The notes under the pieces are model-generated. The model saw only the letters and a list, made by a program, of their open reading frames with translations. It was not told the DNA's origin and ran no database searches. DNA of 64,000 nucleotides, taken from Flavobacterium gilvum. GTDB lineage: Bacteria > Bacteroidota > Bacteroidia > Flavobacteriales > Flavobacteriaceae. Position 1 is the first letter of the stretch. Each line of letters opens with the position of its first letter. The translations under genes and the position numbers were made by a program. The stretch is taken from the NCBI RefSeq assembly GCF_001761465.1, contig NZ_CP017479.1:2046001-2110000 (forward strand), in the 5' to 3' direction. Of this stretch, positions 12,642 through 18,465 are shown one piece after another.

Positions 12642-12911
12642 ATGAGCAAAATAATGACAGTCGACATCTTGTCGAGTATTAAAGGAGCGCAGCCTTCGGA
12701 GAGCGTGAACCAATTGTTTGATGTAATTAAAAATGCACATCCTTCAAATAATAATCCTGCAAATACTGTCAATTATAATTGCGTGTCTGTAAGTGATTTA
12801 AGAGATGATGTTGTGGTAGAGAGTTCGGCTATCGAAAAACAGCTTATTTTGGAAAACTTCCCGAACAAAAAAAATGGTTTTTTAGTAGTTGCTAAAGTTA
12901 TAGAAGGATAA
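12642..12911 (+). CDS. gatC: Divergent GatC-like amidotransferase subunit
   Basis: An 89-residue protein one base upstream of gatA, the usual place for gatC. The C-terminal half matches the GatC signature: LRDDVVVESSAIEKQLILEN corresponds to the family pattern LRxDxVxxSxxREEALxNAP, followed by FPNKKNGFLVVAKVIEG (family pattern EGGFFxVPxVxE). GatC winds between GatA and GatB and stabilises the GatCAB transamidase. The N-terminal half, which normally holds two helices (IARLARLxL..., ILxYVexLxxLD), is shortened and hardly recognisable. An accessory protein unrelated to GatC is the alternative but less likely. Confidence 0.7.
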   Translation: MSKIMTVDILSSIKGAQPSESVNQLFDVIKNAHPSNNNPANTVNYNCVSVSDLRDDVVVESSAIEKQLILENFPNKKNGFLVVAKVIEG

Positions 12912-12912
12912 A

Positions 12913-14310
12913 ATGGATTCTCAAATAAAACAAATACACCAACAATTGGTGTCAAAACAAATAACTTGTACGGCTTTGGTACAAGAAAAATTAGACTTAC
13001 TTAAACAAAATACATATAACTCTGTAAATTCCCTGTTGGATACTTTGGCGTTGGAATTGGCAGCTAAAGTTGATGCTAAAATCGCAAAAGGAGAGGAAAT
13101 CGGTCTTTTGGAAGGAATTCCTTTTGGAATCAAAGATGTTTATATGTTACAGGGAACTTACACAACTGCAAGTTCTGATTTGTTGAAAAATTATAAATCG
13201 CCGTACACTGCTACTGCCATTCAAAAATTACTCGATGCGGGTGCTATTCCATTGGTAAAAGAAAACTGCGACAGTTTTGGTCACGGTTCATCGAGTGAAA
13301 ACACGATTTTTGGAGCTGTAAAAAATGCTGTCAATCCGGAATTGGTTGCCGGTGGTTCAAGCGGTGGTTCTGCGGTAAATGTTGCCAAAGATTATACCGT
13401 ATTTTCCGTTGGTGGAGATACAGGAGGTTCGATTCGTCAGCCGGCTGGGTACAACCATATTTACGGTTTGAAACCAACTTACGGAAGAGTTTCAAGATTT
13501 GGACTTATGGCTTACGCTTCCTCTACAGATTGTGTGGGGCCATTGGCAAAATCAATTGAAGATATCCGAATTGTGCTGAATGTAATGAGCGGAAAAGATC
13601 CAAAAGATCAAACCTCAATCACTTCAACAGAAATTACTGAAGGCGCCATTGCAACTTCATCTGTGAAAAAAGTGGGTTATTTTAAAAATTTCGTTGAAAG
13701 CGATGCTATTGATGCTAAAATAAAAGCCGACTTTTTAGCAAGTATCGAAAAAATTAAAGCCAAAGGAATTGAAGTGAAAGAACTGGATTTTTTCAAATCG
13801 GATATTTTGGTTTCTACTTATTATACTTTGGCAATGGCCGAAACAGCTTCGAATTTATCCCGTTTGGATGGAACCAATTATGGAAACCGCATTGAAGGTG
13901 AGAATTTGATTGATACGTATGCCGTAACACGTTCTGAAAACTTTTCAGAAGAAACAAAACGCAGAATTGTTGGTGGAAACCAAGTATTGTCACAAGGTTT
14001 TTCAGATGAAATTTATTTAAAAGGATTGGCTTTAAGAGATCAGATTTCAGAAAACTTCAGTAAAGATTTCAAAGAAGTAGATATTATTTTATCTCCAGTT
14101 ACACCAAGTACTCCGCCTAAAATCGGAGACAGTTTAAAAGATCCTTTGGCGATGTATTTATCGGATGCTTATACGGTTGGTTTTAGTTTGGGGCAATTGC
14201 CAACTTTGACCGTGCCACAAGGAACTGCCACAGGACTGCAAATTACTGCAGCAAAAAATAATGATGAATTAGTGTTGCAATTTGCAAACTTCTTAAAAGA
14301 TACAATATAA
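12913..14310 (+). CDS. gatA: Asp-tRNA(Asn)/Glu-tRNA(Gln) amidotransferase subunit A
   Basis: A 465-residue amidase-signature enzyme. It hydrolyses glutamine and delivers the ammonia to GatB. The Ser-cisSer-Lys triad is intact: Lys74 in FGIKDVYM, cis-Ser149 in AGGSSGGSAV and nucleophile Ser173 in GGDTGGSIRQP, with spacings of 75 and 24 residues as in known GatA. Length is close to the family's usual 480. It follows the gatC-like gene by one base and overlaps the next gene by one base (TAATG), giving a coupled three-gene operon. Confidence 0.95.
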   Translation: MDSQIKQIHQQLVSKQITCTALVQEKLDLLKQNTYNSVNSLLDTLALELAAKVDAKIAKGEEIGLLEGIPFGIKDVYMLQGTYTTASSDLLKNYKSPYTATAIQKLLDAGAIPLVKENCDSFGHGSSSENTIFGAVKNAVNPELVAGGSSGGSAVNVAKDYTVFSVGGDTGGSIRQPAGYNHIYGLKPTYGRVSRFGLMAYASSTDCVGPLAKSIEDIRIVLNVMSGKDPKDQTSITSTEITEGAIATSSVKKVGYFKNFVESDAIDAKIKADFLASIEKIKAKGIEVKELDFFKSDILVSTYYTLAMAETASNLSRLDGTNYGNRIEGENLIDTYAVTRSENFSEETKRRIVGGNQVLSQGFSDEIYLKGLALRDQISENFSKDFKEVDIILSPVTPSTPPKIGDSLKDPLAMYLSDAYTVGFSLGQLPTLTVPQGTATGLQITAAKNNDELVLQFANFLKDTI

Positions 14311-17300
14311 TGGAATTGGAGCAATTAACAGCGGCGATAAAAGCCCACGATTTAGAATTGGTAATTGGACTGGAAACACACGTTCGATTGAATACCAAAA
14401 CCAAGTTGTTTTGTTCTTGTCCAAATCAAGAAATTGAAACACCTAACCAAAATATATGTTCGGTTTGTACTGGACAAATGGGCGTTTTGCCTGCCGTAAA
14501 CAAAGAAGCGGTTACAAAGGCGATTTACTTTGGTAAAGCAGTTGATTCGTCATTTAGTAATGAAGTGATTTCTTGGGATAGAAAACACTACGAATATCCG
14601 GATAACCCGAAAAATATTCAGATTACACAATTTCATAATCCTATAATTCCTGACGGTCACGTATCTTGTTACCGAAATGACGGTACACAATTTACTGTGA
14701 ATTTGACTCAGGTTCATATTGAGGAAGATGCTGCGAAATTGATGCACGAAAAGAAAATTTCGTTAGTTGATTTTAATAAAGCAGGTGTTCCGTTGATTGA
14801 AATTGTAACAGAACCATGTATCCGTAATATTGAAGACGCTTCAACTTATGCGCAGTACATTCAACGTATTGTTCAAAACTTGGGAATCTCTGAAGCGAAC
14901 CTTGAAAAAGGAGAATTTAAATCAGATGTTTCTGTGTCTTTGCGCAAGAAACATTCTTATGATTTGAATCCAAGAACTGAAATCAAGAACTTGAACTCGT
15001 TTAAGTTTATGGTGGAGGCTTTAAAAGAAGAAGTGGAGAAGCAATTCAATTATTTTATAGAAAATAAAGAGTTTCGACCTGACCAAACGACTGTGTTGTG
15101 GGATGCCGATTTGAAGCAAACCAAAACCATGCGTAAAAAGGAATTTGAAGCCGATTACCGTTTTATTTCTGAACCAGATTTACCTTTTGTAAATATCAAA
15201 AAAGAAATTGAAGCAATTAAAGTTGATACAAGTGCATTGCCTTATGCAGTTGAATCCATTTTAATCAGCGGTGGTGTTTTGCCACAGGATGCGAAGTTTT
15301 TTACAGCAGATAAATTGCGTTCACAAACATTTGTGGAAATTAATAACGAAATTAAAGATCCTTCGTTTGTGGCTAAAACTTTGGCCAATAATTTAAAGAT
15401 CGAAGATTATGCCGAAATTCATAGTATCGCGCATTTAATCGAAATTTTCCAATTATTTAAGGCTGAAAAAATCACGGCAGTTTTGGTTCAAAATGCTATT
15501 GTTGGTTATTTGAAAGACCGAACTTTTGATTATAATAAATATTTTGAAGAAAACACGGTTTCAGAAGATAAGATTCAAGAAGTTATTGCTAAAGTAATTT
15601 CAGAAAATGAGGCTGTTGCCAATGATATAAAAGCGGGTGATCAAGGAAAAGCCGGTATTTTGGTTGGTAAAATTTTAGGCATTATCGGAAAAGGAGCCAA
15701 TGGAAAATTGATCCGCCAAATTATTTTGGACAAATTAGGCGCCGCCGCTGTTTTGGAAAAGCAAGAAGCTTCTGAAAAAGTTTCTAAAGAAGCCGTTGCA
15801 GAGCAAAAGGAAAGTCAGGAAGAAACACTTCCGGAAATTCCTATTATCATAAAGGATACGTATAGAACACATAAAATTTCGCAATTAACAGAAGCAAACA
15901 TCGGTGAAGAAGTGATGTTGGCAGGTTGGGTTTCGAGTGTTCGTGATCACGGAGAATTGATGTTTATCGATTTGCGTGATTCGAGTTATGAGATTTTCCA
16001 AGTGCGTATCAGTAGAGAATCATTTCCTAATATTGATGAGTTAGTGAAATTGAAACCGGAATCGGTAATTTCTGTTACAGGAAAAGTAGTAGGTCGTAAT
16101 GAAGATGATTATAACGCCGGTTTACGTACGGGTAAAATAGAATTGGAAACTTCGGTGTTGGAAATTTTAAATTTATCCAAAACATTGCCTTTCGAAATTA
16201 AAAGAGCAGCAAAATCAAACGAAACAGTTCGTTTCCAATACAAGTTTTTGGATCACCGAAATGAAGAGGTAAGAAGAGCTATTGTAAACCGTCATAAAGT
16301 AATCAAATTATTGCGTGACATTCTGGATGAAGAAGAGTTCTTGGAAATCGAAACTCCAATCTTGAGCGCTGGAACTGATGAAGGAGCACGTGAATTTATT
16401 GTTCCTTCAAGAAAACAAGCCGGTGCGTTTTATACATTACCACAAGCACCGCAACAGTTCAAACAGATGTTGATGGTAAGTGGTTATGAAAAGTATTTCC
16501 AGATTGCCCGCTGTTTTAGGGACGAAGATTCCCGCGGGGATCGTCAGCCTGAATTTACGCAGTTGGATTTGGAAATGGCTTATGGGAATATGCAGCAAAT
16601 TATCGATTTAAACACCAAAATGTTTAATGAAGTAGTGAAGAAAATATATGGCAACAAGTGGATTTTGAAACCGTTTGAAGTGATTACCTATAAAGAAGCC
16701 ATGGATTATTACGGTTGTGACCGACCTGATTTGCGCTATGGCTTGAAAATGCAAGATATCACCGAAATTGTAAAAGATACGACTTTTCAAGTATTCAGTA
16801 AACCAATTGAAGATGGGGGAATTGTAAAATGTATCAAGGTTTCGGCCAAAGAGCAAGGCAATAAGCGAATGTCTAAAGGTCAGATCGAAAACCTTACCGC
16901 GATTGCACAACAGCACGGTTTAGGCGGATTGGCTTATATTATTGTAAATGAAGATGAGTTACAATCGCCAATTATTAAATTCTTGGGAGAAGATATTGCG
17001 GTAGGAATTATAAAAACTACAGATGCGCAAGTGGGTGATATTGTATTCTTCTCAGCGGCAGATTATGCAACGGCAAACAAAGCGTTGGATGCTGTTCGTC
17101 AGGAAATGGGTAGAATGTTGCATTTGATTAATCCTAAGGAATTGCGTCCGGCTTGGGTGGTTGATTTTCCAATGTTTGAAAGAACTGATGAGGGAAGATG
17201 GACATTTACCCACAATCCGTTCTCTATGCCGGCGGTTTATGACTTGGAGAAACATATGAAGGGTGATGATAACGAAATAGGAACTATTATTGCGCAGCAA

Positions 17301-17639
17301 TACGATTTAATCCTGAATGGTTACGAAATTGGAGGAGGATCAGTTCGAGCGCATAAATCGGAGATTCTTGAGGCGACTTATAGAAATATGGGTTACAATA
17401 AAGAGGAAATGATTAAGAGTGTAGGAACGATGTATAAAGCGTTTCAGTACGGTGCGCCGCCACACGGAGGAATTGCATGGGGAATTGATCGTTTGATGAT
17501 GATTTTGGAGAAAAAATCATCCATCAGGGAAGTTATGGCTTTTCCGAAAACGGGAACAAGCGATGATTTGTTGTTTGGAGCGCCAACGCTGCTGTCTGAT
17601 AAAAAGGTGGAAGAAATGAATGTGAGGATTATTAGATAA
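14310..17639 (+). CDS. gatB-aspS: Fusion of GatB amidotransferase subunit with aspartyl-tRNA synthetase
   Basis: A 1109-residue two-enzyme fusion. Residues 1 to about 480 are a full GatB: a catalytic core with LVIGLETHVRLNTKTKLFC, HIEEDAAKL and NKAGVPLIEIVTEP, then a helical domain and a YqeY-type tRNA-binding tail (about 425-475). A charged linker of about 30 residues (KEAVAEQKESQEE) follows. Residues 515-1109 are a complete bacterial-type AspRS: OB-fold anticodon domain (RDHGELMFIDLRD, 545-557), class II motif 1, motif 2 FRDED near 733, GAD insertion domain and motif 3 AWGIDRLMM near 1060. The 595-residue length is normal for AspRS. AspRS would charge tRNA(Asn) with Asp, and GatB would amidate it to Asn-tRNA(Asn). 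His547 is at the position associated with non-discriminating AspRS. No frameshift or stop lies between the halves. Confidence 0.95.
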   Translation: MELEQLTAAIKAHDLELVIGLETHVRLNTKTKLFCSCPNQEIETPNQNICSVCTGQMGVLPAVNKEAVTKAIYFGKAVDSSFSNEVISWDRKHYEYPDNPKNIQITQFHNPIIPDGHVSCYRNDGTQFTVNLTQVHIEEDAAKLMHEKKISLVDFNKAGVPLIEIVTEPCIRNIEDASTYAQYIQRIVQNLGISEANLEKGEFKSDVSVSLRKKHSYDLNPRTEIKNLNSFKFMVEALKEEVEKQFNYFIENKEFRPDQTTVLWDADLKQTKTMRKKEFEADYRFISEPDLPFVNIKKEIEAIKVDTSALPYAVESILISGGVLPQDAKFFTADKLRSQTFVEINNEIKDPSFVAKTLANNLKIEDYAEIHSIAHLIEIFQLFKAEKITAVLVQNAIVGYLKDRTFDYNKYFEENTVSEDKIQEVIAKVISENEAVANDIKAGDQGKAGILVGKILGIIGKGANGKLIRQIILDKLGAAAVLEKQEASEKVSKEAVAEQKESQEETLPEIPIIIKDTYRTHKISQLTEANIGEEVMLAGWVSSVRDHGELMFIDLRDSSYEIFQVRISRESFPNIDELVKLKPESVISVTGKVVGRNEDDYNAGLRTGKIELETSVLEILNLSKTLPFEIKRAAKSNETVRFQYKFLDHRNEEVRRAIVNRHKVIKLLRDILDEEEFLEIETPILSAGTDEGAREFIVPSRKQAGAFYTLPQAPQQFKQMLMVSGYEKYFQIARCFRDEDSRGDRQPEFTQLDLEMAYGNMQQIIDLNTKMFNEVVKKIYGNKWILKPFEVITYKEAMDYYGCDRPDLRYGLKMQDITEIVKDTTFQVFSKPIEDGGIVKCIKVSAKEQGNKRMSKGQIENLTAIAQQHGLGGLAYIIVNEDELQSPIIKFLGEDIAVGIIKTTDAQVGDIVFFSAADYATANKALDAVRQEMGRMLHLINPKELRPAWVVDFPMFERTDEGRWTFTHNPFSMPAVYDLEKHMKGDDNEIGTIIAQQYDLILNGYEIGGGSVRAHKSEILEATYRNMGYNKEEMIKSVGTMYKAFQYGAPPHGGIAWGIDRLMMILEKKSSIREVMAFPKTGTSDDLLFGAPTLLSDKKVEEMNVRIIR

Positions 17640-17883: not shown

Positions 17884-18465
17884 ATGAAGTTAGTTTTTTT
17901 TGAATATACAAAAAACTGTAAAGAATTTAATATTCTTCTAAAAGCTACAAGTGAAGATGCTTCAAGAAGAGATTTGAAACAAGGGCAATTATTATTTGAA
18001 TCTATATATCAAAATATTATACTTATAGATGCTCAAATTTGTGGAATTGAAAGTGCTATTGCTTGTAAGAATATTAAAATTTTCGGATCAGATGAAAAAA
18101 AAATGTTTGATCAAGAAGTGATTTTGGTAGAATATAGACCAGATTTTGAGCAAGGGATTAGAAAATGGGAAAATCTTCAAAATATTGATTACAACGATTA
18201 TATTCATAATATATATCCCTCAATTAGTAAAGTTTTAGAGTTTTTAGGCTCTGATTTCGATCATGAGAAATACAGATTATTAACTCTAGATATGGAAAAA
18301 GAGAATAAAGAGAATAAAAAAGGAAATATATTATATCTGGAACCTGGAAGCATCTCGAAATTTAGTAACTCTATTAAACAACACATTGAAATTGTTCTTG
18401 AATATTATTCTAAGCAATCATTTAAGCTAACAGAATATATCGATTTGTTTTTAAGATTAAATTGA
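17884..18465 (+). CDS. Hypothetical protein, unrecognised
   Basis: A 193-residue soluble, mixed alpha/beta-looking protein with no signal peptide, membrane segment or motif I recognise. It starts MKLVFFEYTKNCKEF and contains SEDASRRDLKQGQLLFESIY and a charged stretch MEKENKENKKGN near 140. Codon use is more AT-rich than that of its neighbours, with AT-rich flanks of more than 200 bp on the left and repeats on the right, which suggests a gene acquired separately from the gat and gyrB neighbours. It stands alone on its strand between two terminator- or repeat-bounded regions. Confidence 0.6.
   Translation: MKLVFFEYTKNCKEFNILLKATSEDASRRDLKQGQLLFESIYQNIILIDAQICGIESAIACKNIKIFGSDEKKMFDQEVILVEYRPDFEQGIRKWENLQNIDYNDYIHNIYPSISKVLEFLGSDFDHEKYRLLTLDMEKENKENKKGNILYLEPGSISKFSNSIKQHIEIVLEYYSKQSFKLTEYIDLFLRLN

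Follow-up and report, generated by a model that had tools for sequence, protein, structure and literature searches.

Deinococcus radiodurans and Thermus thermophilus synthesize asparagine in a tRNA-dependent manner with AspRS2 and the amidotransferase GatCAB, according to the excerpted text of PMC4206432, and this 2014 survey lists five Deinococcus-Thermus genera that carry AspRS1, AsnRS, GlnRS, a second AspRS and GatCAB and lack asparagine synthetase. Bdellovibrio bacteriovorus, in the same excerpt, possesses AsnRS, GlnRS and GatCAB, is given as lacking asparagine synthetase, and has an AspRS that was assayed and is non-discriminating. Here we analyzed a 64,000-nucleotide stretch of the Flavobacterium gilvum genome (NZ_CP017479.1, positions 2,046,001 to 2,110,000; hereafter the window), in which GatB and an AspRS are encoded as one protein. 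The likeness to Deinococcus-Thermus lies in a second AspRS and GatCAB alongside AspRS1, AsnRS and GlnRS, whereas their second AspRS is a stand-alone enzyme of archaeal type (PMC4206432, excerpt) and that of Flavobacterium gilvum is bacterial-type and fused to GatB. With Bdellovibrio the fusion host shares AsnRS, GlnRS and GatCAB in the absence of a detected asparagine synthetase, but Bdellovibrio relies on a single unfused AspRS that does both jobs. The asparagine transamidosomes of P. aeruginosa (PDB 4wj3) and Mycobacterium tuberculosis pair a bacterial-type, non-discriminating AspRS with GatCAB, and the fused AspRS shares the RDHG motif; these complexes are non-covalent, and assembly of the mycobacterial one depends on tRNA(Asn) (PMC8406222, excerpt), whereas the tether of the fusion makes the AspRS-GatB link permanent. 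An AspRS is also covalently joined to a GatCAB subunit in the bifunctional AspRS/GatC family (NF009460, PRK12820), but the subunit there is GatC rather than GatB, and the fusion protein, at 468 bits, falls short of the 1379-bit cut-off, which places it outside that family. The gatC-gatA fusion polypeptide of M. smegmatis (PMC7541841, excerpt) is a different arrangement. NCBI gives proteins of this architecture in public Flavobacterium records the name "bifunctional amidotransferase subunit GatB/aspartate--tRNA ligase AspS", a product label of the kind that an earlier reading of the window made from the DNA letters (the sequence-only reading) had mentioned; among the 25 models from NCBIfam listed for the fusion protein, not one spans both halves, and a search of open-licence PMC papers returned no study of a GatB-AspRS fusion.

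The gatB/aspS fusion gene (14310..17639, + strand; defined by its reading frame and NCBIfam and Pfam matches) is a single uninterrupted ORF with an ATG start that encodes 1109 amino acids followed by a stop codon. NCBIfam models matched GatB at residues 14-477, above the cut-off, and AspRS at residues 517-1108. The GatB catalytic domain (residues 17-300; 14358..15209, +; PF02934, GatB_N, E = 3e-93) is followed by a YqeY-type tail (residues 353-476; 15366..15737, +; PF02637, GatB_Yqey, E = 2.2e-10), a linker (residues 478-514; 15741..15851, +) and the AspRS half (residues 515-1109; 15852..17636, +; NF001750, 712.6 bits; PF01336, PF00152 and PF02938), within which Pfam placed the OB fold at residues 535-609, the class II core at 637-1081 and the GAD domain at 829-926. 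These spans agree with the sequence-only reading, which had described GatB with its YqeY tail, a linker and a full AspRS with GAD domain in a single frame. The linker is variable and predicted to be disordered: across 90 fusion loci its mean consensus fraction was 0.44 vs 0.81-0.94 in the remaining blocks, its length from fixed column to fixed column ranged from 38 to 51 residues, and the predicted monomer structure (pTM 0.54), used solely for domain order and linker disorder, had pLDDT values below 50 across residues 477-503. At all 90 loci both Zn-type Cys pairs of the GatB half and the class II motifs of the AspRS half are retained. Runs of at least seven A were denser in the linkers (9 per 11,028 bases) than elsewhere (66 per 289,188 bases). 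Slippage at such a run might yield free GatB, but 81 of the 90 linkers, including that of the window, contained no run of this length.

A frame matching the fusion was present in 23 of 149 genomes of the family (1115-1123 amino acids, no internal stops), and both halves lay in one frame at 90 of 90 fetched loci (L008-L017, L021-L100), a count that serves as a consistency check rather than a frequency because the loci were chosen as the best matches to the fusion. These intact frames in relatives exclude an assembly accident. Some marine and freshwater bacteria are among the carriers. In some database records the halves appear as separate frames (pairs P0259/P0165, P0278/P0197, P0288/P0180 and P0268/P0183, the longest contig being equal in length within each pair), and P0180, P0259, P0165, P0246, P0247 and P0253 look like frameshifts or cut frames, judging from their protein sequences. 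GatB-only proteins with at least 91% coverage among the matches listed were in some cases 34-39% identical to the GatB half of the fusion; the rest were at least 50% identical and indistinguishable from broken or cut fusions (for example P0246, P0247, P0278, P0279 and P0295).

The fusion gene is the last in the order gatC-gatA-gatB/aspS. The gatA gene (12913..14310, +; 465 amino acids, glutaminase subunit; TIGR00132 E = 5.7e-131, PF01425 E = 7e-114) scored 437.5 bits with TIGR00132, below the cut-off of 481.1, and both of its Ser motifs were found in 89 of 90 aligned rows and its Lys motif in at least 86. Its final base is at once the first base of the fusion gene, and the same one-base overlap was seen at 87 of 90 loci. 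Upstream lies gatC (12642..12911, +; 89 amino acids, amidotransferase subunit C), whose matches (TIGR00135 and PF02686, each E = 2.3e-4) are weak and below the curated cut-offs; its position is right for gatC, and a gatC homologue preceded gatA at 77 of the 90 parsed fusion loci. GatCAB is thus complete, with gatC, gatA and gatB all in the operon and the motifs of GatA and GatB conserved. The reading frame makes the association of AspRS with GatB covalent, and the shared operon suggests that GatC and GatA would join the fusion protein.

The host genome also encodes a full AsnRS, a second, free AspRS that does not carry the residue typical of non-discriminating enzymes, a GlnRS above the curated cut-off and a GluRS-type gene. 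Profile searches of this genome found no AsnA and no AsnB match over the cut-off; a weak AsnB match at G000:C1:2165748 turned out to be MnmA. A tRNA(Asn), sought for U1-A72, was not found in the approximately 1.2 Mb of genome scanned, in the window or in 58 loci. The sequence-only reading had proposed a transamidosome in a bacterium devoid of AsnRS. Of this proposal, the covalent union of the two enzymes of the pathway that leads through Asp-tRNA(Asn) to Asn-tRNA(Asn) and the sign of a non-discriminating AspRS stand, and the absence of AsnRS does not. It had also held that a full AsnRS together with a separate non-discriminating AspRS would speak against it; AsnRS and a separate AspRS are both present, but the latter does not have the signature residue of the non-discriminating type.

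In the fused AspRS, which is bacterial-type with a GAD domain and has Peregrinibacteria and similar lineages among its relatives, residue 547 (15948..15950, +; located by alignment) is the His of an RDHG motif within the anticodon-binding domain, a motif that aligns with the RDHG of 4wj3 and 4rmf, the T. thermophilus counterpart being RDLG. This His corresponds to H31 of P. aeruginosa AspRS, and the second switch position to G82 of that enzyme; the switch residues of P. aeruginosa AspRS were reportedly described by Bernard et al. in 2006. The motif was found at 90 of 90 fusion loci, and the His position was occupied by K, L or F in all 30 free AspRSs from Bacteroidia; a His here is seen in non-discriminating AspRSs and may be a sign that the fused enzyme is one. 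All 13 unfused relatives of the fused AspRS share this His, which may therefore reflect ancestry rather than selection. The second switch position, Gly in P. aeruginosa, is Asp in the fusion, and the active-site motifs of the fusion read QAPQ and HNPFS, compared with QSPQ and HHPFT in the enzymes of T. thermophilus and P. aeruginosa. Mean identity was 88.9% for the fused AspRS half vs 89.9% for the free AspRS (45 pairs, 10 genomes), from which the fused enzyme appears about as constrained as its free counterpart, and constraint near the level of a housekeeping AspRS points to a needed function.

Across the survey of 149 family genomes (23 with the fusion and 126 without), GatB was confined to the 23 fusion genomes and occurred each time in the fusion frame. 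Canonical AsnB showed the reciprocal distribution, being found in 0 of 23 fusion genomes vs 109 of 126 non-fusion genomes, and AsnA in 0 of 23 vs 10 of 126 (Fisher P = 1.4e-16 for AsnB and 4.6e-19 for AsnB or AsnA, with relatedness ignored). By score and length, free AspRS, AsnRS-type and LysRS-type genes were present in 23 of 23 fusion genomes, as were GlnRS-type and GluRS-type matches, those in G140 being fragmentary; with an AsnRS-type gene and a free AspRS in every fusion genome, the correlation with absence of asnS expected from the sequence-only reading fails. Since the gene absent with the fusion is asnB and not asnS, its role is likely to be the making of asparagine, and because free AspRS, AsnRS and GlnRS cover the other needs, Asp-tRNA(Asn) is the likely substrate of its GatCAB. 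We therefore consider it probable that the fusion is an asparagine transamidosome with a covalent AspRS-GatB link, devoted to asparagine production and standing in for canonical AsnB (and AsnA) in the lineages that carry it. The fused AspRS half would charge tRNA(Asn) with aspartate, and the fused GatB half, together with GatC and GatA of the same operon, would amidate the tRNA-bound aspartate to asparagine, possibly with Asp-tRNA(Asn) handed over along the tether without release. Asp-tRNA(Asp) would come from the free housekeeping AspRS, AsnRS would charge recycled or imported asparagine, and GlnRS would handle glutamine. A bolder version, which we find possible but doubtful, makes the fused AspRS a mischarger dedicated to tRNA(Asn) within a one-chain "asparagine synthetase on tRNA" whose intermediate is never released and which came to stand in for AsnB through repeated exchanges across the family; given that a free, discriminating AspRS is also present, only Asp-tRNA(Asn) formation would be maintained by selection in the fusion.

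Fusion genomes cluster on the tree, and the association with asnB could in principle be an accident of ancestry, asnB having been lost by chance in a small number of lineages that acquired the fusion. Relatedness was examined on a free-AspRS tree covering 129 of the 149 genomes. When branches of any support were used, 10 independent pairs were discordant for the fusion, and canonical AsnB occurred only in the non-fusion partner in 8 of them, with the reverse in 0 and 2 ties (9, 0 and 1, respectively, when AsnA was included). Strongly supported branches left 4 independent pairs, with 4 supported pairs again on a codon-position tree, a number with which the sign test is unable to reach 0.05. The one-sided direction of the 10 pairs nevertheless speaks against coincidence, as do close relatives that change both traits together, such as the genome of the window and a congener with a 92% identical free AspRS, and we regard an accident of ancestry as very unlikely.

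Another reading treats the fusion as a backup or stress route that supplements asparagine obtained mostly from uptake, protein recycling or unusual AsnB-like enzymes, so that its loss would cause no auxotrophy. Other AsnB-like proteins exceeded the TIGR01536 cut-off in 9 of 23 fusion genomes (the status of G034 and G061 being judged from best E-value and tally), and the fusion need not be the sole source of asparagine there; in one fusion genome, two AsnB-like genes flank polysaccharide genes. In addition, 8 of 126 non-fusion genomes contained neither the fusion nor AsnA nor any AsnB over the cut-off. Elsewhere in the class, in other families, an unfused GatB occurs; of 38 listed genomes 14 were examined, and all 14 had just one AspRS, not fused, together with an AsnRS-type gene, while 12 of 14 also had a GlnRS-type gene, with the signature His missing from the 10 of these AspRSs that were aligned; unfused GatB beside AsnRS, GlnRS and a His-less AspRS implies either that GatCAB is kept there for another reason or that the residue is a poor guide. 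These observations fit a supplementary role, but the uniform lack of canonical asnB with the fusion and the near-housekeeping constraint on its AspRS make such a role unlikely. A bacterium that has no AsnRS and depends on the fusion alone for Asn-tRNA(Asn), as in the sequence-only reading, would account for the joining of both enzymes of the indirect pathway; this model is highly improbable given AsnRS in the host, AsnRS-type genes throughout the fusion genomes and the free second AspRS. Equally improbable is a GatCAB serving glutamine through Glu-tRNA(Gln) with the AspRS half as carrier or regulator: bacterial GatCAB can use both substrates (PMC4206432, excerpt) and bacterial AspRSs can form Glu-tRNA(Glu) (PMC6523644, excerpt), a product distinct from Glu-tRNA(Gln), but the AspRS motifs are intact at 90 of 90 loci, the distribution follows asnB, and we rejected this role on finding GlnRS in the host and, along with GluRS-type genes, in all 23 fusion genomes.

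If the reading as an asparagine-making transamidosome in place of AsnB is correct, nature would have produced a transamidosome with a permanent tether, and its hosts could decode without it. It would also extend the occurrence of a second AspRS beyond the Deinococcus-Thermus genera, which the 2014 survey listed for genomes that have AsnRS, GlnRS and GatCAB but no asparagine synthetase (PMC4206432, excerpt). Compared with the complexes that depend on tRNA, the fusion offers a simpler object in which to ask whether a mischarged tRNA passes on without being released, and the same reading makes a clean genetic prediction, namely asparagine auxotrophy on loss of the fusion. For the Flavobacteriaceae, it would predict a route to asparagine in members that lack AsnB.

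The fusion gene (14310-17639, + strand) is the 3'-most member of an operon in which gatC (12642-12911, +) comes first and gatA (12913-14310, +) lies in the middle, sharing one base with the fusion gene. As the sequence-only reading had held, it is a single uninterrupted frame, of 1109 aa, and domain models recovered both halves: GatB with its YqeY-type tail at residues 14-477, and AspRS at residues 517-1108, comprising an OB fold, a class II core and a GAD domain. The bifunctional product name mentioned in that reading does appear in public annotation. Across 90 parsed fusion loci, gatA lay directly 5' of the fusion in 89 (the sole exception has just 37 bases upstream), the one-base overlap recurred in 87, and a gatC homologue was present in 77, with the 12 loci that have gatA but no gatC offering less than 3 kb of sequence upstream of the fusion. 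The linker was the least conserved block of these 90 loci (mean consensus fraction 0.44 vs 0.81-0.94 elsewhere) and spanned 38-51 residues between fixed columns. Of five AlphaFold models, the best had a mean pLDDT of 82.8 (74.7-80.5 for the other four), with values below 50 at linker residues 477-503 as well as in AspRS loops 684-709 and 738-745, short GatB stretches and the C-terminus; because pTM was 0.54, the monomer has no fixed predicted arrangement. Just 3' of the fusion, a 193-aa frame (17884-18465, +) had no match in Pfam.

The fusion had been read as belonging to a genome without AsnRS, to be checked by searching for asnS and a second aspS. Both were found in the F. gilvum genome (one contig, 4.40 Mb), with AsnRS at 662.6 bits and a free AspRS of 598 aa from the longest start at 819.8 bits, and the premise therefore fails. 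GlnRS (822.3 bits against a cut-off of 681) and LysRS-type and GluRS-type genes were also present. This genome yielded no match to AsnA and no AsnB over the cut-off; its only asparagine-synthase match, at 20.4 bits and below the cut-off, was rejected as AsnB, the gene being MnmA. The gap in this genome is asparagine synthetase, not AsnRS.

To place this gap in the family, 149 Flavobacteriaceae genomes from 148 genera were surveyed. The fusion was detected in 23 (identity 79-100%); GatB_N matched exactly 23, all in frames of 1115-1123 aa, and had no match in the other 126. A canonical AsnB query (L018, 554 aa, above the NF006949 cut-off) matched 112 genomes at a threshold of 1e-30, and G007, G033 and G044 were left out of the count, having partial matches of 111-113 bits only. 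None of the 109 genomes thus counted, which take in five at 51-52% identity (G016, G031, G079, G094 and G111, with a partial match in G079) and G048, where the match is a fragment, has the fusion. AsnA occurred in 10 genomes, none of them fusion-bearing and six without canonical AsnB. No fusion, AsnA or AsnB was detected in eight non-fusion genomes of 64-96% completeness (G022, G041, G058, G089, G092, G112, G116 and G136). The broader TIGR01536 model placed 125 genomes above its cut-off, including nine of the 23 with the fusion (G002, G006, G034, G044, G061, G113, G132, G134 and G140; G034 and G061 assigned from E-value and tally). In the seven fusion genomes with listed matches, these AsnB-like frames were longer, at 603-642 aa, and the two proteins checked against NCBIfam (G044 and G132) exceeded the TIGR01536 cut-off, their top model being TIGR03108, below its own cut-off. 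Two long AsnB-like amidotransferases in G132 (L275:695-2509 and 15494-17392) flank a polysaccharide cluster of sugar-nucleotide, flippase, ligase and glycosyltransferase genes. Each of the 23 fusion genomes carried, beside the fused AspRS, a free one and genes of LysRS and AsnRS type (types separated by score and length, with F. gilvum as guide), together with GlnRS-type and GluRS-type genes (GlnRS fragmentary in G140), and the expectation that the fusion would track the absence of asnS across relatives was thus not borne out.

Fisher's test on fusion against asnB takes no account of relatedness, and a FastTree phylogeny of free AspRS was built for 129 of the 149 genomes (all 23 with the fusion and 106 of the 126 others, those with listed coordinates), on which the fusion label requires 10 changes. 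Strongly supported branches gave four independent pairs, canonical asnB being opposite to the fusion in about 3.7 and the same way in none, which are too few to reach significance; a codon-position tree again gave four. Our own pairing over all branches, whatever their support, gave 10 pairs, of which eight were opposite, none the same and two tied (sign test, 0.008), or nine, none and one when AsnA was also counted (0.004), and 7-8 of 10 pairs were opposite on the codon-position tree. The nearest pair comprises F. gilvum (fusion, no AsnB) and G127 of the same genus (AsnB, no fusion), with free AspRSs 92% identical. In G127, a further asnB-like gene with 48% identity to the query comes after the canonical asnB (C7:1613-4997).

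The AspRS half carries a candidate specificity signature. Its RDHG motif was found in all 90 fusion loci (91 alignment rows, the F. gilvum protein being present twice) and in structures 4wj3 and 4rmf, labelled tRNA(Asp/Asn) ligases, while T. thermophilus AspRS, with the label tRNA(Asp), has RDLG. Among 30 free AspRSs of Bacteroidia (20 of fusion genomes and 10 of other families), all had K, L or F at the histidine position and K at the second position, where 25 fusion-type rows had D in 23, G in one and V in one. Bernard et al. (2006) reportedly found that these two positions switch the specificity of P. aeruginosa AspRS. The fused half may therefore be non-discriminating, as judged from these residues. 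The histidine was kept in 13/13 more distant relatives (mostly N-terminally incomplete, nine with a GatB Pfam match) and also in 13/13 unfused relatives, and could thus be an ancestral feature of AspRSs of this type. Class II motifs were invariant or nearly so in fusion loci, and QAPQ for QSPQ and HNPFS for HHPFT (fusion residues 711-719 and 967-972) occupied the active site in 90/90, variants common to the related proteins P0198, P0222 and P0228 and not found in P0240.

A 100/100 branch split the fused AspRS and its unfused relatives from 16 sampled free Bacteroidia AspRSs (with a long-branch warning from the program), and the fused half is therefore not a duplicate of the host's own AspRS. 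Among complete relatives devoid of GatB sequence, the closest was P0198 from Candidatus Peregrinibacteria (597 aa, 62% identity), grouped with the fusions at 98/87 and placed inside them at only 95/71, next to a long branch. Two proteins among the nearest unfused relatives (P0198, P0221-P0240) bear the name Candidatus Peregrinibacteria, and at least six of the 13 unfused relatives have W at a conserved G, as would be expected of genomes reading UGA as glycine. The grouping of P0198 with the fusions suggests gene transfer between the two groups, for which either direction is possible. No clear unfused close relative of the GatB half was found among the listed database proteins: GatB-only proteins of at least 50% identity may be broken fusions, and other well-covered ones were 34-39% identical. 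Over 45 pairs of 10 fusion genomes, mean identity reached 88.9% in the AspRS half of the fusion and 87.7% in its GatB half, vs 89.9% in free AspRS, and both halves are therefore under nearly housekeeping-level selection.

The five Pfam domains were present in all 120 listed of the 5281 database proteins whose length fell in the range of the fusion, that of F. gilvum included. The best 80 of 571 confirmed fusion loci came from Flavobacterium, Lutibacter, Polaribacter, Flaviramulus, Mariniflexile, Flavivirga, Tamlana, Gaetbulibacter, Aestuariibaculum, Confluentibacter, Algibacter, plus unnamed Flavobacteriaceae and a single MAG under the name Lentimicrobium. A contig with that label (L027) carries a fusion 93% identical to that of F. 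gilvum, and the label is likely a binning error. Halves in separate frames (P0259/P0165, P0278/P0197, P0288/P0180 and P0268/P0183, paired by the same length of their longest contig; also P0246 and P0247) probably reflect frameshifts, truncated frames or errors of assembly, and possibly real splits. GatB occurred in 320 of 394 genomes of the phylum sample; within Flavobacterium it matched F. gilvum and two others and was not found in at least 20, with 54 further negative genomes beyond those listed. Among 38 listed GatB-bearing genomes from further families of Bacteroidia, 14 were examined, G226, G155 and G210 among them: all had a single unfused AspRS and an AsnRS-type gene, 12 had both GlnRS- and GluRS-type genes, and none of 10 aligned AspRSs had the histidine. 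In these families GatCAB may thus persist for some other reason, or the histidine may be an unreliable marker; either way, the finding sits awkwardly with the proposed role of the fusion in place of AsnB.

The pathway itself is already known, as are its use for asparagine alongside AsnRS and GlnRS and transamidosomes of the non-covalent kind. In the available part of a 2014 survey of 547 genera, the group with AsnRS, GlnRS and GatCAB and no asparagine synthetase numbers 18, some Bacteroidetes among them, with a second AspRS only in Deinococcus-Thermus (PMC4206432). Our search of open-licence PMC papers found none on the fusion or on its exclusivity with asnB.

On the most likely reading, the AspRS half would use ATP to put aspartate onto tRNA(Asn), whose acceptor end would then swing to GatB of its own or a partner chain (AspRS being dimeric in bacteria); ammonia would come from glutamine via GatA, and Asn-tRNA(Asn) would depart. 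The tether would hold the AspRS and GatB active sites together even without tRNA, whereas the mycobacterial complex, in the available part of its description, needs tRNA(Asn) for assembly (PMC8406222). AsnRS is argued to recycle free asparagine in Bdellovibrio, in the part of the 2014 survey available (PMC4206432). In the fusion-bearing Flavobacteriaceae, the covalent AspRS-GatCAB would thus make asparagine on tRNA(Asn) in place of AsnB, and AsnRS would reuse free asparagine.
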